Virus record (IMG/VR): IMGVR_UViG_3300043313_001341 | Span: 1 to 55,168 of that record | DNA: 55,168 bases | Reading direction: 5' to 3' (one strand) | Source: a virus | In this document: in pieces, positions 28,564 through 45,176 of the stretch | Layout: every line of letters begins with the position of its first letter | How positions within the stretch are numbered: position 1 is the first letter of the stretch | Notes under the pieces: model-generated | Database searches by the model: none | The model's input: the letters and a program-made list of their open reading frames with translations, nothing else | Told to the model about the DNA's origin: nothing | Program-made: the position numbers and the translations under genes

Positions 28564-29000
28564 TGCCCAAGCTCGGACCCGCCGACGTCCCCGAGGTCAA
28601 GCTCGACTCGGCCGCCGCCGTCGTCGAGGCCTCGATGACCCGCGAGCAGCGCCGCGGCCTCTTCGAGAAGCCCGGCACGGTCGTTTACGCCATCGTCGAG
28701 CTCACCTCCAAGTCGTACACCGGGCACGCCGAGGGCGAGGAGAAGCCCGCACAGGTCAAGGTCCGCGTCACCGGCTGCGAAGTCGCCCGCAACGACGAGG
28801 ACGCCAAAGCCCTGATCGACGCCCGCCGCGCCATGTACCGCGGCCGGCAGATCGACGGCACGTTCGACGAGGTCGGCCGCGGCCCGATCCACCCGGGCAA
28901 CCACCTCGACGAGCTGGCCGCGACGAAGCCCACCGAGGACGAGCTCCGGGACTTCAAGCGGCGCCGCGAGCAGGACCGCCAGGACGAGTTCGTCCGCTGA
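28563..29000 (+). CDS. Last gene of the early operon, unknown function
   Basis: 145 residues from ATG 28563, overlapping the previous stop (TAATG). Sequence such as TVVYAIVELTSKSYTGHAEG and KVRVTGCEVARNDEDAKALI suggests a small beta barrel with a charged helical tail (RDFKRRREQDRQDEF). A DNA-associated role is plausible from its position but unproven. It is followed by two terminators. Confidence 0.6.
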   Translation: MPKLGPADVPEVKLDSAAAVVEASMTREQRRGLFEKPGTVVYAIVELTSKSYTGHAEGEEKPAQVKVRVTGCEVARNDEDAKALIDARRAMYRGRQIDGTFDEVGRGPIHPGNHLDELAATKPTEDELRDFKRRREQDRQDEFVR

Positions 29001-29059
29001 CCACCTGACGGGGCGGCCGGCCCCTCGGCGCATCCCCCAGCGTCGCGGCCGCCCACCGG

Positions 29060-29099
29060 CCCGGGAGCCCGCAACTTCCCCCTACCGCGGGCTCCCGGG
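29060..29099. terminator. Terminator 1 after the early operon
   Basis: Perfect 13-bp arms CCCGGGAGCCCGC and GCGGGCTCCCGGG, loop of 14 bases. It lies 60 bases after the last early gene. Confidence 0.75.
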
Positions 29100-29113
29100 C
29101 GCCACAGCACGAA

Positions 29114-29138
29114 GCCCCGCACCAGCACGGTGCGGGGC
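29114..29138. terminator. Terminator 2, between convergent genes
   Basis: Perfect 10-bp arms GCCCCGCACC and GGTGCGGGGC around AGCAC. It can serve both the early operon (+) and the antitoxin-like gene (-). Confidence 0.72.
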
Positions 29139-29163
29139 CTGGAGGAGGAAGGAGCAGCCGGTG

Positions 29164-29448
29164 TCAGGTTCCACGTCGCAGCTCGTCGCGATACCTGGCC
29201 AGGTCGCTTTCCAGGTGCTCCCGGTTCTGCTCGCCGAAGGTGTCGTCGATCAGCCGCCAAATCGCCTGAGCGGTCAGCCGGTCCTCCAACGCCTGTTCGT
29301 AGAAGTCGACGGATACGACGGCGACTTGGGGCTTGTCCCGCCGGGTGAGCACGACGGGCGTACCGAGGAGGCGTACCTCGGCGATGACCTCGGTCATGTT
29401 CGCGCGAGCGTCGGACACACCCATGCGCTTCTCAGCGGGCTGACTCAT
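29164..29448 (-). CDS. Phd/YefM-type antitoxin-like protein
   Basis: 94 residues from ATG 29448 (an upstream in-frame start at 29463 is possible). The Phd/YefM pattern is clear: VSDARANMTEVIAEV followed by GTPVVLTRRDKPQVAVVSVDFYEQ, the N-terminal DNA-binding fold; the C-terminal half is charged and helical, as in toxin-binding tails. No toxin-like gene is adjacent on either side. It may be a regulator or an anti-toxin countermeasure against host modules. A 10-bp palindrome ATTGTACAAT at 29490-29499, about 42 bp upstream, may be its operator. Confidence 0.78.
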   Translation of the reverse strand: MSQPAEKRMGVSDARANMTEVIAEVRLLGTPVVLTRRDKPQVAVVSVDFYEQALEDRLTAQAIWRLIDDTFGEQNREHLESDLARYRDELRRGT

Positions 29449-29594
29449 GCGACCAGGATACACAGCAGACCAACATCCAAGTGCGTCGCATTGTACAATT
29501 CAGAAGCAGGGGAAGCCCACCGAAGACCGCCCTGAGAGGCCCTGGTTCCGCGCGCCCAAAACCCCTGATCAGCACGGCCGAGAGAAGACACTCC

Positions 29595-30464
29595 GTGGGA
29601 ATCCGCTTGATCGTCGAGGTGCTCACCAGCGCACCCGAAGCCCTGACGCACAGGGAGAAGCTCCTCCTCGTCGTCCTGGCCGAGGACGCCAACGACACCA
29701 CCCGCATCACGTGGAACAGCGTGGAGCGGCCCGAGGTGCTGCGCGGCGCGAAGCTCAGCCGCGCGCAGCTCTACGCCGTCCTGAAGTCCCTCGCGGCCAA
29801 GGGTGTCCTGGAGAAGCTGTCGTCCGGCCAGAAGAACGGCACGGCGAAGTACAAGATCCCCGCCTTCGAAGAGTCTCAGTGTCAGGGAATCCCTGACACT
29901 GACGGCCCGTCTCAGAGTCCCAGTTCTCCTGACACTGAGACCTCTCAGTGTCCCGGAACTCCTGACACTGACGAAAACGCTCAGTGTCCCGAAAACGCGG
30001 ACACTGACCCGTCTCAGTGTCAGGAAATCCCTGACCTCAGTGTCAGGGAATCCCTGACCCCTACCCCTCTTAACCCCTCCTCTACTACCCCCTCAGCTAG
30101 CCAGCAGGAAGAGCCCGCCCCCGAACGTCTCGGCTACGGCATCCCAGAAGCCGCCCGCCCCCTCGTCGACCAACTCACCGCAGCAGGCGTCGTCGTCCGC
30201 TGGCCCTTCACCGGCAACACCTGGTTCCCGCTCCTGGCACTCATCGAGAAGACCGGCATCCCCGCCCTCGTCGACCACGCCGTCCAAGCAGCCGCGCGAG
30301 CGTCCGAACCCGTCAGCTCCGCCAAGTACTTCATGCGCGGCTGGAGCGAACTCCCGCCCATGCCCGGGCACGGCACCGCCCGGCCGCCGCTGCGCGCCGT
30401 CTCCGGCGGATGGCAGCCCTACACCAACCCCGCCGACCACTCGGTCTACGAGAACGGATTCTGA
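29595..30464 (+). CDS. Replication initiator (lambda O-like) with embedded origin repeats
   Basis: 289 residues from GTG 29595. N-terminal winged helix about 10-85 (LTHREKLLLVVLAEDAND, KLSRAQLYAVLKSLAAKGVLEKL). Residues ~94-155 are a low-complexity linker (repeated SQC, PDTD) that exists because the DNA carries iterons. The C-terminal domain (~175-289) should contact the helicase loader encoded next. Position, architecture and embedded dyads parallel lambda O, whose origin also lies inside its gene. The upstream frame extension to 29481 lacks support. Confidence 0.75.
   Translation: MGIRLIVEVLTSAPEALTHREKLLLVVLAEDANDTTRITWNSVERPEVLRGAKLSRAQLYAVLKSLAAKGVLEKLSSGQKNGTAKYKIPAFEESQCQGIPDTDGPSQSPSSPDTETSQCPGTPDTDENAQCPENADTDPSQCQEIPDLSVRESLTPTPLNPSSTTPSASQQEEPAPERLGYGIPEAARPLVDQLTAAGVVVRWPFTGNTWFPLLALIEKTGIPALVDHAVQAAARASEPVSSAKYFMRGWSELPPMPGHGTARPPLRAVSGGWQPYTNPADHSVYENGF
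29876..30058. repeat. ori: Six dyad iterons: probable origin of replication
   Basis: Unit starts are 29876, 29912, 29945, 29981, 30014 and 30037; the first four are full 27-bp units and the last two lack the final bases. The first is perfect: TCAGTGTCAGGG, AAT, CCCTGACACTGA. Spacing alternates 36, 33, 36, 33, then 23 bp. A pyrimidine-rich tract with local A+T (30056-30094, including CTCTTAACC) follows and could be the melting region. Confidence 0.72.
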
Positions 30465-30467
30465 GCC

Positions 30468-31199
30468 ATGACCGACCCCAAGACCCTCACGGAACACCGG
30501 CCCTCCGCACTCGCCAACCTCATGGCCGGCGTCGCCGAGCGCCACCCGCACATCCAGCCCGGCCCCATCGACGACCAGCCCACCCCCGACGAACCGGGCC
30601 ACCCCGAATACCACCGCCGCCGACGCGCCGAATGGGCCCTCAGCCGCTGGACCACAGCCACACCGCCCCGCTACCGCCGAGCCGCCGCCGTCCACCCCGA
30701 CATCCAGCAGTGGGCCGACAACGTCGGCGCCGACCCTGAGACCGCCGGATCCCTCCTTCTTACCGGAACCACGGGCACCGGCAAGACCCACCAGGCGTAC
30801 GGAGCGCTCCGCCGCATCGCCGAAGCCGGACCTCACCGCTACGAGATCATCGCGACCACGGCCGCCGACATGTACGGGCTGCTCCGTCCCAAGGGATCCG
30901 AGCGGGGAACGGAAGCCGAACTCGAACGACTCGCCCGTATCCCACTGCTCCTCCTCGACGACCTCGGCTCGGCCAAGGCCTCCGAGTGGACCGAAGAGAT
31001 CACATACCGGCTCATCAACGAGCGGTACAACGCCTGCCTCCCCTCGATCTACACCAGCAACCTCCCCGCCACGTCATCCGACGGCCGCGACATCACCAGC
31101 GCGCTCGGCGAACGCATCGCCTCTCGCCTCTCCCAAGACACCCGCGTCGTCGCGATGACCGGCCCCGACCTCCGCCGCGGACTCCGGAGCGTCTCCTGA
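30468..31199 (+). CDS. DnaC-like AAA+ helicase loader
   Basis: 243 residues. Walker A is GTTGTGKT (100-107) and Walker B is LLLLDDLG (160-167), followed by a sensor region YTSNLPATS and a C-terminal Arg-rich end (ERIASRLSQDTRVVAM). The first ~70 residues are disordered and probably bind the initiator or helicase. Like lambda P/DnaC it should load the host replicative helicase at the iteron origin; no phage helicase or primase was found. Three bases separate it from the initiator gene. Confidence 0.85.
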   Translation: MTDPKTLTEHRPSALANLMAGVAERHPHIQPGPIDDQPTPDEPGHPEYHRRRRAEWALSRWTTATPPRYRRAAAVHPDIQQWADNVGADPETAGSLLLTGTTGTGKTHQAYGALRRIAEAGPHRYEIIATTAADMYGLLRPKGSERGTEAELERLARIPLLLLDDLGSAKASEWTEEITYRLINERYNACLPSIYTSNLPATSSDGRDITSALGERIASRLSQDTRVVAMTGPDLRRGLRSVS

Positions 31200-31561
31200 T
31201 GCCCATCCGTCCGGAGAACCGCCACCGCTACCCGAAGAACTGGCCGCAGATCAGCCGCCGCATCCGCTTCGAACGAGCAGAAGGACGCTGCGAGTGCACC
31301 GGCGAGTGCGGACGCGGCACCCACGACGGCCGCTGCTCCAACATCCACGGCCAGCACGCCTACAGCACCGGCTCGAAGGTCGTCCTCACCGTCGCCCATC
31401 TCAACCACACGCCCGAGGACTGCCGCGACGACAACCTCCGCGCCATGTGCCAGGGCTGCCACCTCCACTACGACCGCGACCACCACCGCGAGACCGCAGC
31501 CGCCACCCGACGAGCCGCCATCGAAGCCTCCGGCCAACTCGCCCTCGACGCCCCTCCGTGA
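31199..31561 (+). CDS. HNH-type endonuclease
   Basis: 120 residues from ATG 31199 (TGATG overlap). Basic N-terminus RPENRHRYPKNWPQISRRIR, Cys-rich middle (CECTGECGRGTHDGRC) and the nuclease motif VAHLNHTPEDCRDDNLRAMC then CHLHYDRDHH. It may be a homing nuclease or a packaging-associated enzyme; translation coupled to the helicase loader suggests early expression. Confidence 0.78.
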   Translation: MPIRPENRHRYPKNWPQISRRIRFERAEGRCECTGECGRGTHDGRCSNIHGQHAYSTGSKVVLTVAHLNHTPEDCRDDNLRAMCQGCHLHYDRDHHRETAAATRRAAIEASGQLALDAPP

Positions 31562-31722
31562 CCAAGCCGCCCGAGTGGTCCATCCGCTGCCCCTGGTGCC
31601 AAGCAGCCCCCGGCAACCGCTGCACCAGCCCCCGCGGCCGACGCCTCCCCATCGAATCCCACGACGCCCGCATCACCACATGGACCAACCGCCCCACCAC
31701 CGAGAACGGAGCCAACCAATGA
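31558..31722 (+). CDS. Small phage zinc-binding protein
   Basis: 54 residues from GTG 31558 (GTGA overlap). IRCPWCQAAPGNRCTSPRGRRLPIESHDAR matches the C-x2-C-x6-C...H pattern of the small phage zinc-finger family found in many actinophages. Likely a nucleic-acid-binding accessory; function unknown. Confidence 0.62.
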   Translation: MTKPPEWSIRCPWCQAAPGNRCTSPRGRRLPIESHDARITTWTNRPTTENGANQ

Positions 31723-32015
31723 CCACCATCCCCGCCGCAGCCATAGCCGTCATCGCCGCCGCCCTCGACGACTACCGCCTCACCACACCACCCCACACCC
31801 AGACCCCCCGCGCAGCCGCCGAACGCGCCGCCGAATACCTCGCCTCCAGCGGATGGGGCCTCCACGTCCCCCGCAGCATCCAGCCCCGCGCCCGCGCCGC
31901 ATGCCCCGCCTGCACCGTCCGCCACCTCATCACCCAAGCAGGCCGCATCCGACGCCACGGACCCCACGGCCACCCCTGCCCCGGATCCGGCAGCCCGGTC
32001 CGAGTCACCGCCTGA
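31719..32015 (+). CDS. Small protein with CPAC motif, unknown function
   Basis: 98 residues, ATGA overlap. Ala-rich N-terminal helices and a C-terminal set AACPACTVRHLITQAG with His/Cys later (HGHPCPG), a possible zinc site. No family recognised. Confidence 0.55.
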   Translation: MTTIPAAAIAVIAAALDDYRLTTPPHTQTPRAAAERAAEYLASSGWGLHVPRSIQPRARAACPACTVRHLITQAGRIRRHGPHGHPCPGSGSPVRVTA

Positions 32016-32056
32016 CCGCCGGCCACCACCCACCCCAGCCACACGAAACGGACACC

Positions 32057-32548
32057 ATGACCACCACCACCACCACCACCCACCGCGGACTCACCATCAA
32101 GCAGCCCTGGGCCTTCGCCATCGCCGAAGGCTTCAAGACGGTCGAGTGCCGCTCCCGCCGCACCCACTACCGCGGCCAGCTCCTCATCCACGCCGGACGC
32201 GCTGTTGACCACTCGGTGACGATCGTCAGCTACAGCCGAGACGCCGCAATCCGCTTCGACGAGCTCGGAGGCCGCTCGAACTACTGGGACGTCCGCGAGC
32301 ACATCCCGAGCCGCATCGTCCCGCCGCCGCCCACAGCGATGGCGTGCTCCGGAGTCATCGCCACGGCCCGCCTCGCTGGCTGCCACGAGGCCGCTGACGG
32401 CTGCTGCGCCCCGTGGGGCTTCCCCGACCAGTGGCACTGGGAGCTCGCCGACGTCCAGCCCCTGAAGCGGGCCGTGCCGCGCGCCGGCGCCCTCGGCTTG
32501 TGGAAGCCCGACATCGAACTCCTGGCTGCTGTCGCCGACGCCGCCTGA
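32057..32548 (+). CDS. ASCH-domain protein
   Basis: 163 residues. GLTIKQPWAFAIAEGFKTVECRS is the ASCH (PUA-like) opening motif, followed by YRGQLLIHAG and VIATARLAGCHE. ASCH proteins bind RNA and some hydrolyse N4-acetylcytidine; in phages they are frequent, with unclear roles. A run of six to seven Thr codons opens the gene; the exact start is therefore uncertain. Single gene, 41 bases after the previous. Confidence 0.75.
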   Translation: MTTTTTTTHRGLTIKQPWAFAIAEGFKTVECRSRRTHYRGQLLIHAGRAVDHSVTIVSYSRDAAIRFDELGGRSNYWDVREHIPSRIVPPPPTAMACSGVIATARLAGCHEAADGCCAPWGFPDQWHWELADVQPLKRAVPRAGALGLWKPDIELLAAVADAA

Positions 32549-32646
32549 CCGTGCTCATCCGGTTACGCCCACTCCACGCGATCACCACCACGCGCGAGCA
32601 CCCCACCCCACCCAACTCGCCCGACCACACCGAAAGGCCAACCACG

Positions 32647-33081
32647 ATGACCGACCACACCAGCCGCCCCGCGATGACCATGCGGCAGATCCGCCAAGCC
32701 CTCGGCCACACCGTCCCGCCGCCCGGCGTCCCGGAGCCGACCGTCCAGCCCACCGGCTACGTCGTCTCCTGCCTCCCGGAAGGCCACGACGACCGGTGGA
32801 CGTTCACCGTCCAGGTCCGCTACGCCGGACACGGCCTGTTCGCGATCAAGCACGGCATCCGCCAGTACGGCACCGACGGCACCTGGTCCTACGAGCCCGA
32901 CTTCGACGAGGACGACGCAGCCGAGGACGCCTGGCTGAAGGAGCACCGCTTCGACCACGACACGGCGCTGCGCCTGGCCCGCGAGTTGGCGCCGACGCTG
33001 ACGTACCGGGGCCAGTCGGTCGCCGACGTGCTTGCCGCCGCTGCCGCTGTTGTTGGTGGCGAGTCCGGGAACAACCAGTGA
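32647..33081 (+). CDS. Protein of unknown function upstream of the PAPS-reductase-like gene
   Basis: 144 residues from ATG 32647. Beta-rich middle (WTFTVQVRYAGHGLFAIKHG) and acidic, helical C-terminus. Its stop overlaps the next start (GTGA), so the pair is probably made together. No domain known to me. Confidence 0.58.
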   Translation: MTDHTSRPAMTMRQIRQALGHTVPPPGVPEPTVQPTGYVVSCLPEGHDDRWTFTVQVRYAGHGLFAIKHGIRQYGTDGTWSYEPDFDEDDAAEDAWLKEHRFDHDTALRLARELAPTLTYRGQSVADVLAAAAAVVGGESGNNQ

Positions 33082-44204: not shown

Positions 44205-44443
44205 GTGGTGGGCTCCTCGTCCGGGCGCACCGGGCCCGCGCTTGGGTCGATCAGGTCGATGACGTCGCCCGCCGACACGATATCCCCGTCTTCCAACGGG
44301 ACACCGACCTCACGGGCGTAGGCCCGCTGCTGCTCGGCCAGCTCGTGCGCGTAGGCGTCGAGCAGCTCGGCCGCCTCGTCCTCGCGGAGGCCGACGAGCC
44401 CAGGGTTCCTCAGCGTCTCGGCGAGCCGCTCGCGTGCACTCAT
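44201..44443 (-). CDS. Small acidic helical protein, unknown function
   Basis: 80 residues from ATG 44443 (overlapping the previous gene's stop by ATGA). LREDEAAELLDAYAHELAEQQRAYAREVG suggests a helical bundle. Middle gene of the leftward operon. Confidence 0.55.
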   Translation of the reverse strand: MSARERLAETLRNPGLVGLREDEAAELLDAYAHELAEQQRAYAREVGVPLEDGDIVSAGDVIDLIDPSAGPVRPDEEPTT

Positions 44444-44721
44444 CCGGTCTTCTCCTCGCTGCTCGCCGGGCGCTCCGGCGCGAGCTTGCCAACCGTCGGC
44501 GGCCTCTTCCGCTCCACCCCGAGCGCGCGGGCTCGCCGGCGGAACACCTCCGGCGTGAGTCCGGTCCAGGCGGCGAGCTGGCCGACGGTGGCGCCGGCCT
44601 TGAGCTCGCGGTCGGCGAACTCCAGCATCTCGGGCTTCAGTTCGCGCTCGCCTTCGTAGTGGGCCTTGTAGCGGGCGAACGTGTCGGCGGCGTCTCGGGG
44701 TGGTGCGTAGTCCTTCGGCAT
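44440..44721 (-). CDS. HTH regulator of a divergent module
   Basis: 93 residues from ATG 44721, or 99 from TTG 44739 on a short-leader mRNA; GGAGG sits too close to 44721 to be ideal. The HTH is KAGATVGQLAAWTGLTPEVFRRRARAL. It is divergent from 44835 across a 14-bp inverted repeat and is probably an autorepressor that also controls that gene. First gene of a three-gene leftward operon. Confidence 0.62.
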   Translation of the reverse strand: MPKDYAPPRDAADTFARYKAHYEGERELKPEMLEFADRELKAGATVGQLAAWTGLTPEVFRRRARALGVERKRPPTVGKLAPERPASSEEKTG

Positions 44722-44760
44722 GCCTCCATCTTGGCACAACGGGTAGCCCTACCGTAAGAG

Positions 44761-44794
44761 CTACACGTAGCCCTATTGACAGGGCTACGTGTAG
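44761..44794. promoter_or_regulatory. Operator: perfect 14-bp inverted repeat
   Basis: Arms CTACACGTAGCCCT (44761-44774) and AGGGCTACGTGTAG (44781-44794) flank ATTGAC. Further half-sites GTAGCCCT lie at 44743-44750 and 44791-44798. The rightward -35 box begins inside the spacer. Confidence 0.72.
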
Positions 44795-44804
44795 CCCTCA
44801 TGAT
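44776..44804 (+). promoter_or_regulatory. Predicted promoter inside the operator
   Basis: TTGACA (44776-44781), a 17-bp spacer and CATGAT (44799-44804), with the right arm of the dyad filling the spacer. A repressor bound there would block RNA polymerase directly. Confidence 0.6.
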
Positions 44805-44834
44805 GGAGCTATCACCACGAACGAGGGGGCAGCA

Positions 44835-45176
44835 ATGCAGAACACCACCACCACCGAGCAGGCCCGCTGCCTCCACTGCCACCGCATCCTCACCAGCGCC
44901 AAGAGCATTGCCCTCGGCTACGGCCCCCGCTGCGCCCGCAAGATCCGCAACGCCGCCGTCGACCTCACCAACTACAAGCCCCACCAGATCACCAGCGCCC
45001 GCGAGCTCATCGAGGACGGCGCCATCGTCCCCTTCCGCTCCGTCGTCTTCATCACCGTCAGCACCGACGGCACCGAGACCTACAAGACCGCCCCCACCGG
45101 GTGCACGTGCCCGGCCGGCCTCAAGGGCTCGCGCTGCTACCACCAGTTGGCCGCCCGCCTGCTGCTCGCCGCCTGA
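44835..45176 (+). CDS. DUF6011-like zinc finger plus SWIM-type zinc finger protein
   Basis: 113 residues from ATG 44835 with GAGGGGG at 44822-44828. N-terminal CLHCHRILTSAKSIALGYGPRC matches DUF6011-type fingers. The C-terminus, GCTCPAGLKGSRCYHQLAARL, has the C-x-C-x8-C-x-H pattern of SWIM fingers, which bind nucleic acid or protein. It is driven by the regulated promoter upstream. Confidence 0.68.
   Translation: MQNTTTTEQARCLHCHRILTSAKSIALGYGPRCARKIRNAAVDLTNYKPHQITSARELIEDGAIVPFRSVVFITVSTDGTETYKTAPTGCTCPAGLKGSRCYHQLAARLLLAA

Follow-up and report, generated by a model that had tools for sequence, protein, structure and literature searches.

An array of dyad sites within a phage initiator gene as a probable lambda-like replication origin

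Replication origins that lie inside a gene are textbook cases in phage λ, in SPP1 and in some plasmids. In oriλ, located in gene O, and likewise in lambdoid and Stx phages, the initiator gene carries the iterons in its central part; each iteron is an inverted repeat bound by a dimer, an easily opened region follows, and the gene of the helicase loader comes next (PMC5043065, PMC7466680). The Bacillus phage SPP1 carries an in-gene origin, oriL, in gene 38 with the loader gene next to it, while oriR, about 13 kb away, is bound by the same initiator and has been proposed to be a late fork-stalling site (PMC6316719). In staphylococcal RepA_N plasmids such as pSK41 the Rep boxes lie within rep itself and are bound by the winged-helix N-terminal domain of the initiator; the origin-encoded linker can be dispensed with, and in the pPR9 chimera the N-domain and the origin are exchanged as a block (PMC5703833).

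The window analysed here, by which we mean the whole stretch of 55,168 bp, contains six dyad units in a single open frame, that of its replication initiator gene, and the loader gene lies directly downstream, a layout as expected of a λ-type origin. We consider the array to be the initiator-binding part of a phage replication origin located inside the initiator gene, as in λ, with a probability of about 0.87. A preceding sequence-only reading had placed the array in the linker of a winged-helix protein followed by a DnaC-like loader, in the manner of λ O and P, and this is in agreement with the PHROG matches and the structure model. The features are the following.

29595–30464, + strand: replication initiator gene, GTG start, ending with TGA at 30464, 289 amino acids
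29595–29864, + strand: winged-helix N-terminal domain, residues 1–90 (AlphaFold2 model)
29876–29902: dyad unit 1, perfect palindrome TCAGTGTCAGGGAATCCCTGACACTGA, 13+1+13
29912–29938: dyad unit 2, TCAGAGTC-N11-GACACTGA
29945–29971: dyad unit 3, TCAGTGTC-N11-GACACTGA
29981–30007: dyad unit 4, TCAGTGTC-N11-GACACTGA
30014–30035: dyad unit 5, right half cut to GAC
30037–30058: dyad unit 6, right half cut to GAC, 23 bp from unit 5 and hence in another reading frame
29911–30110: region of low duplex stability, the second least stable 200 bp stretch of the 55 kb record
30056–30096, + strand: conserved pyrimidine tract immediately following unit 6, GACCCCTACCCCTCTTAACCCCTCCTCTACTACCCCC...
30130–30464, + strand: C-terminal domain of the initiator, helical in the model and common to the initiators of SV1, SoJo, Eklok and Raleigh
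30468–31199, + strand: DnaC-like helicase loader (phrog_50, E = 2.6e-32; Pfam IstB_IS21, E = 2.1e-11)

The 55 kb record further contains integrase, RecE- and Erf-like recombination, terminase, portal and capsid genes, and by this gene content it is classed as a temperate phage. Its host is probably a Streptomyces, as the relatives of the C-domain are Streptomyces phages; one genome relative carries the label Saccharothrix sp. ST-888. Just upstream of the initiator, a divergent gene on the minus strand (29164–29463) encodes a Phd/YefM-type antitoxin, alongside which no toxin gene was recognised, and in another locus (L161) a protein that by eye resembles a Phd/YefM-type antitoxin also adjoins the initiator. 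The loader is followed by a putative HNH endonuclease gene (31196–31518), of which a segment is 81–91% identical to Mycobacterium phages; this is the main near-identical DNA in named phages for 20–44 kb of the window. Approximately three 24 bp repeats with GTAGCCCTA...AGAGCTAC at 44743–44811, upstream of a small leftward gene (44440–44721) and of a rightward ATG near 44835, are probably an operator array. At the initiator (29000–33000) the GC skew falls from about -0.08 to -0.30, and it stays negative to about 42 kb; this fall near 30 kb was set aside as evidence, since coding-strand bias could produce it.

The likeness to λ lies in the in-gene dyads and the loader gene that comes next, and possibly in the low-stability region at the array. 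The dimensions differ: λ has four 19 bp iterons and a 40 bp A+T-rich tract and the Stx phages have six iterons, whereas the window has six 27 bp dyads with a period of about 34.5 bp and a pyrimidine tract in a genome of 69% G+C. The loader is DnaC-like by its PHROG match and is not identified as λ P, and the similarity of the initiator to O-like replication initiation families of PHROG is weak (phrog_391, E = 2.8e-6; phrog_6643, E = 5.7e-7; phrog_345, E = 2.5e-5); the initiator of a relative, L127, matches PHROG 391 with an E-value of 6e-32. One record, G001, has both an in-gene and a distal array and in this resembles the oriL/oriR pair of SPP1. The SPP1 origins, however, consist of direct repeats with A+T-rich DUEs, while the window has dyads and no second array.

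The GTG start at 29595 is kept among the relatives. In the AlphaFold2 model the N-domain consists of helices 3–12, 19–31, 46–52 and 56–68 and of strands 73–76 and 85–87, and its best fold matches in the PDB are annotated DNA-binding domains of plasmid Rep/initiator proteins (5kbj, 4pt7 and 4pql), all of them weak with an E-value of about 0.01. This likeness to the RepA_N plasmids is accompanied by differences, as the boxes and the partner genes are others and a Pfam search of the initiator returned no family above the cutoff, the RepA_N model included. A sequence search of solved structures gave two weak, apparently low-complexity matches, none of them convincing. The N-domain and the core of the C-domain are modelled with confidence, whereas linker residues 95–180 are predicted to be disordered (pLDDT < 50), and the array corresponds to residues 94–155 or thereabouts, under this disordered linker. 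An N-domain of the window type was found in none of the named phages searched, and the plasmids searched gave one distant Pseudonocardia match only; the putative iteron-binding domain thus appears to have no characterised relative among them.

A C-domain homologous to that of the window is present in the Streptomyces phages SV1, Picard, SoJo, ToastyFinz and Eklok, in which the gene at the same position also carries a dyad array in its linker. In SV1, Picard, SoJo and Eklok the last two units are likewise 23 bp apart. The N-domain of this group is nevertheless unrelated to that of the window and the dyads are others (such as GGGCCGGAATCCGGCCC). Their records annotate the gene as a DNA-binding, helix-turn-helix or replication initiation protein, and the stretches viewed carry no origin annotation. 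In the open-access library searched, outside which most subscription journals lie, neither a published in-gene origin of this kind in Streptomyces-type phages nor a paper on the family of the window was found. In Darolandstone and Raleigh (about 2780–2930 in L013 and L014) another N-domain occurs with another linker array, made of GCGAATCGTCC repeats at 11 bp, and a GTCACACCGTGACGG-like dyad is seen there by eye.

The six unit starts reported earlier (29876, 29912, 29945, 29981, 30014 and 30037) are all correct, as are the perfect symmetry of the first unit and the truncation of the last two, in which the right half lacks CTGA. Inverted arms of 12 bp had also been proposed; these describe unit 1 only, and the part conserved across units is a pair of 8 bp outer half-sites. 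Similarly, the alternation of 36 and 33 bp describes the first four steps and not the last (36, 33, 36, 33 and 23 bp). A search of the whole 55 kb for the 27 bp unit with up to three mismatches finds sites only at the array, with an expectation of 0, and there is no second array of such sites in the record.

From 101 units at 17 loci the consensus is TCAGNGTC-N11-GACNCTGA, an inverted repeat fit for a dimer, with the right half reduced in the last two repeats. Positions 2–4, 6–8 and 20–22 are essentially invariant, position 5 is free and the inner 11 bases are variable. In the window, units 2–4 pair at 7–9 of the 13 arm positions. The units could in principle act as RNA hairpins in the initiator mRNA, for translation control or attenuation, and the transcript indeed folds with z = -11 relative to shuffles, as is expected of any array of palindromes. 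Against this, in 32 of 55 distinct units the bases at stem position 5/23 do not pair, the inner arms pair in 49% of cells, which is the shuffled level, without covariation, and the arrays persist outside the initiator gene. RNA hairpins are therefore highly improbable and were rejected on the inner arms, no better than shuffles, and on the mostly unpaired stem position. The dyad thus amounts to two fixed half-sites about 19 bp apart and, as judged from this pattern, is a site for a symmetric protein dimer rather than a hairpin.

The constraint appears at the level of the DNA. With the protein kept and the codons redrawn, arm pairing is 39.0 ± 2.7 compared with 55 observed, a value reached in 0 of 20,000 draws; a milder null, in which the existing codons are only permuted, gives z = 2.1 for the arms and z = 3.3 for unit identity. 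Among 16 close loci, window included, diversity at the third codon position compared with the first is 0.24 versus 0.10 and 0.32 versus 0.19 in the two protein domains, where the third position varies most, but 0.17 versus 0.20 in the array and 0.03 versus 0.12 in unit 6. In 34 of 38 loci the last unit lies in a reading frame other than that of the preceding one, and in 33 of the 38 the step to it is 23 bp; many of the loci compared here are close kin, and counts over them do not represent independent events. As a consequence of the frame change, the peptide of unit 5 is SQCQEIPD and that of unit 6 is LSVRESLT, although their DNA is near-identical.

Selection at the protein level for a repeated linker peptide (SQCP..PDTD) would account for the similar peptides of the five units that share one frame. 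It does not account for the unrelated peptide of the last unit in its other frame, for the free variation of the amino acid at column 5 alongside fixed synonymous third positions, or for two relatives with an out-of-gene array that are without the peptide. We rejected this explanation, which we regard as close to negligible, on the frame shift of the last unit and the codon-position patterns. These patterns indicate that selection in the array acts on the DNA rather than on the peptide. That iterons should be kept while the encoded linker drifts had been put forward beforehand as a check, and it holds among the relatives compared.

Next, 2.9 million viral contigs were scanned with a pattern made up of one unit and the half-site that follows it, using DNA only and no protein information. 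The scan returned 44 stretches on 43 contigs, and a profile search placed the N-domain in the site-bearing ORF in 41 of the 44. In the other three (L131, L139 and L153) no initiator ORF runs through the array, and an N-domain initiator gene lies 14.4, 12.6 and 10.3 kb off, respectively. Since every distal array shares its contig with an N-domain gene, the pairing of domain and array holds for arrays inside the gene and outside it alike. The initiator linker of these contigs has no unit and is Pro/Ala-rich in two of three, while two units are kept in the third, and the SQC/PDTD-type peptide is found only where units are coding. The ordinary Pro/Ala-rich linker of these two distal-array phages supports the proposal that the SQC/PDTD linker is forced by the dual use of the sequence. 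Instead of an origin that has moved, the distal arrays could represent a second origin or a late-origin site.

Dyad arrays are also typical of parS-like sites, so a centromere-like or packaging site bound by some other protein has to be considered. This is very unlikely, as the array tracks the initiator N-domain even outside the gene and, in the part of the record that was annotated, no gene was recognised as a partition gene. The TCAGNGTC array pattern is absent from 70 bacterial genomes of the genus to which the Saccharothrix-labelled relative belongs and is not a common host repeat in that genus.

Directly after the last unit, the tract reads GACNCCTACYC in 23 of 24 loci and GACACATACTC in the remaining one. 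These loci were fetched without use of the tract and form an independent set for its conservation, while the perfect conservation of GACCCCTACCCCTC in an earlier set arose by construction and was left out of the counts. The frame in which the tract is read varies between phages, giving TPTP in the window, LPL in L004 and PYS in L135. In L171 a distant initiator with 37% identity in the N-domain has dyads of the type GACCCCC...GGGGGTC and yet ends in GGTCCTACTCC. L171, L172 and L173 are three contigs of one bacterial genome, each with a related initiator copy, dyads of the type GACCCCC-N6-GGGGGTC and a CCTACTCC tract. A+T enrichment is modest, with 43% in the array and 40% in the tract compared with 31% in the record overall; beside one distal array the next 60 bp reach 52%.

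The sites might instead bind the initiator for control, through autorepression, copy number, titration or late fork stalling, with replication starting elsewhere. The array is far from the gene in three phages, and SPP1 has its in-gene oriL and distant oriR bound by one initiator (PMC6316719), both of which fit such a role. However, about 280–460 bp into the gene is a poor place for a promoter-operator, the conserved tract follows the in-gene array in 24 of 24 loci of the independent set, the region is thermodynamically weak and the record has no further array of such sites. We consider a purely regulatory role unlikely.

The predicted origin function is supported by the DNA-level conservation, the N-domain link, the low duplex stability and the adjacent loader gene. 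The sites, their conservation, the link to the N-domain, the linker predicted to be disordered and the loader gene next door were computed directly, and from them we infer binding, opening, helicase loading and replication start. N-domain dimers would bind each dyad via its two TCAGNGTC half-sites about 19 bp apart, and the cluster of bound dimers would strain the DNA such that the weak stretch opens at and immediately beyond the last two units and the CCTACYC tract. Opening and helicase entry would thus occur on the tract side of the array. The C-domain would then recruit the product of the next gene, the DnaC-like loader, and this loader would place the DnaB helicase of the host.

The dyad type follows the N-domain and not the C-domain. 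The window type shares its C-domain with SV1, SoJo, Eklok and Raleigh, which have other N-domains and other repeats. L136 and L004 have one other C-domain in common with dyads TCAGNGTC and GGGTCCGG, respectively, and L127 and L109 a third one with TCAGNGTC and GGGTCACC. The GTC-N11-GAC geometry holds across N-domains down to 33–40% identity. The neighbours of the C-domain vary between a DnaC-like loader, a DnaB-like helicase, both, or a PHROG 8924 zinc-finger protein. That the dyad type goes with the N-domain and the neighbours with the C-domain is predicted by a split into origin-binding and helicase-recruiting parts. Among the last residues of the initiators (L022, L026, L053, L128 and L138) two styles are common, ...NGF/RGIF and ...FDRAxARAxAR, and these residues may be a docking peptide. 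The second style goes with a following PHROG 8924/22143 gene and not with a loader or DnaB-like helicase in the loci viewed (L022, L128 and L138), an assignment tested for L022 and L128.

Among in-gene steps in the 27–36 range, 135 of 148 are 33 or 36 bp and five are not multiples of three, whereas in the non-coding arrays of three contigs 8 of 15 steps are 34 or 35 bp (Fisher p = 6e-7). This is suggestive of units that prefer a period near 34.5 bp and of a 33/36 alternation imposed by the codons. We give even odds to a portable origin module made up of the winged-helix domain and its dyad array, joined to at least four C-terminal or helicase-delivery modules and with the array moved in or out of the gene, its steps being forced to 33/36 by coding and relaxed to take in 34 and 35 where it is non-coding. 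If so, the coding constraint on an origin would be directly measurable.

The in-gene design itself is known, and what appears to be new is the N-domain/iteron family of the window with its consensus, tract and distal arrays. The exact consensus of the putative binding sites, the conserved adjacent tract and the natural out-of-gene arrays make the coding constraint on an origin testable, and the locus is a compact candidate replicon for Streptomyces vectors. The arrangement recurs in a large, little-studied phage family with hosts that are probably Streptomyces, and the array pattern can mark predicted origins in dozens of unannotated actinophages.
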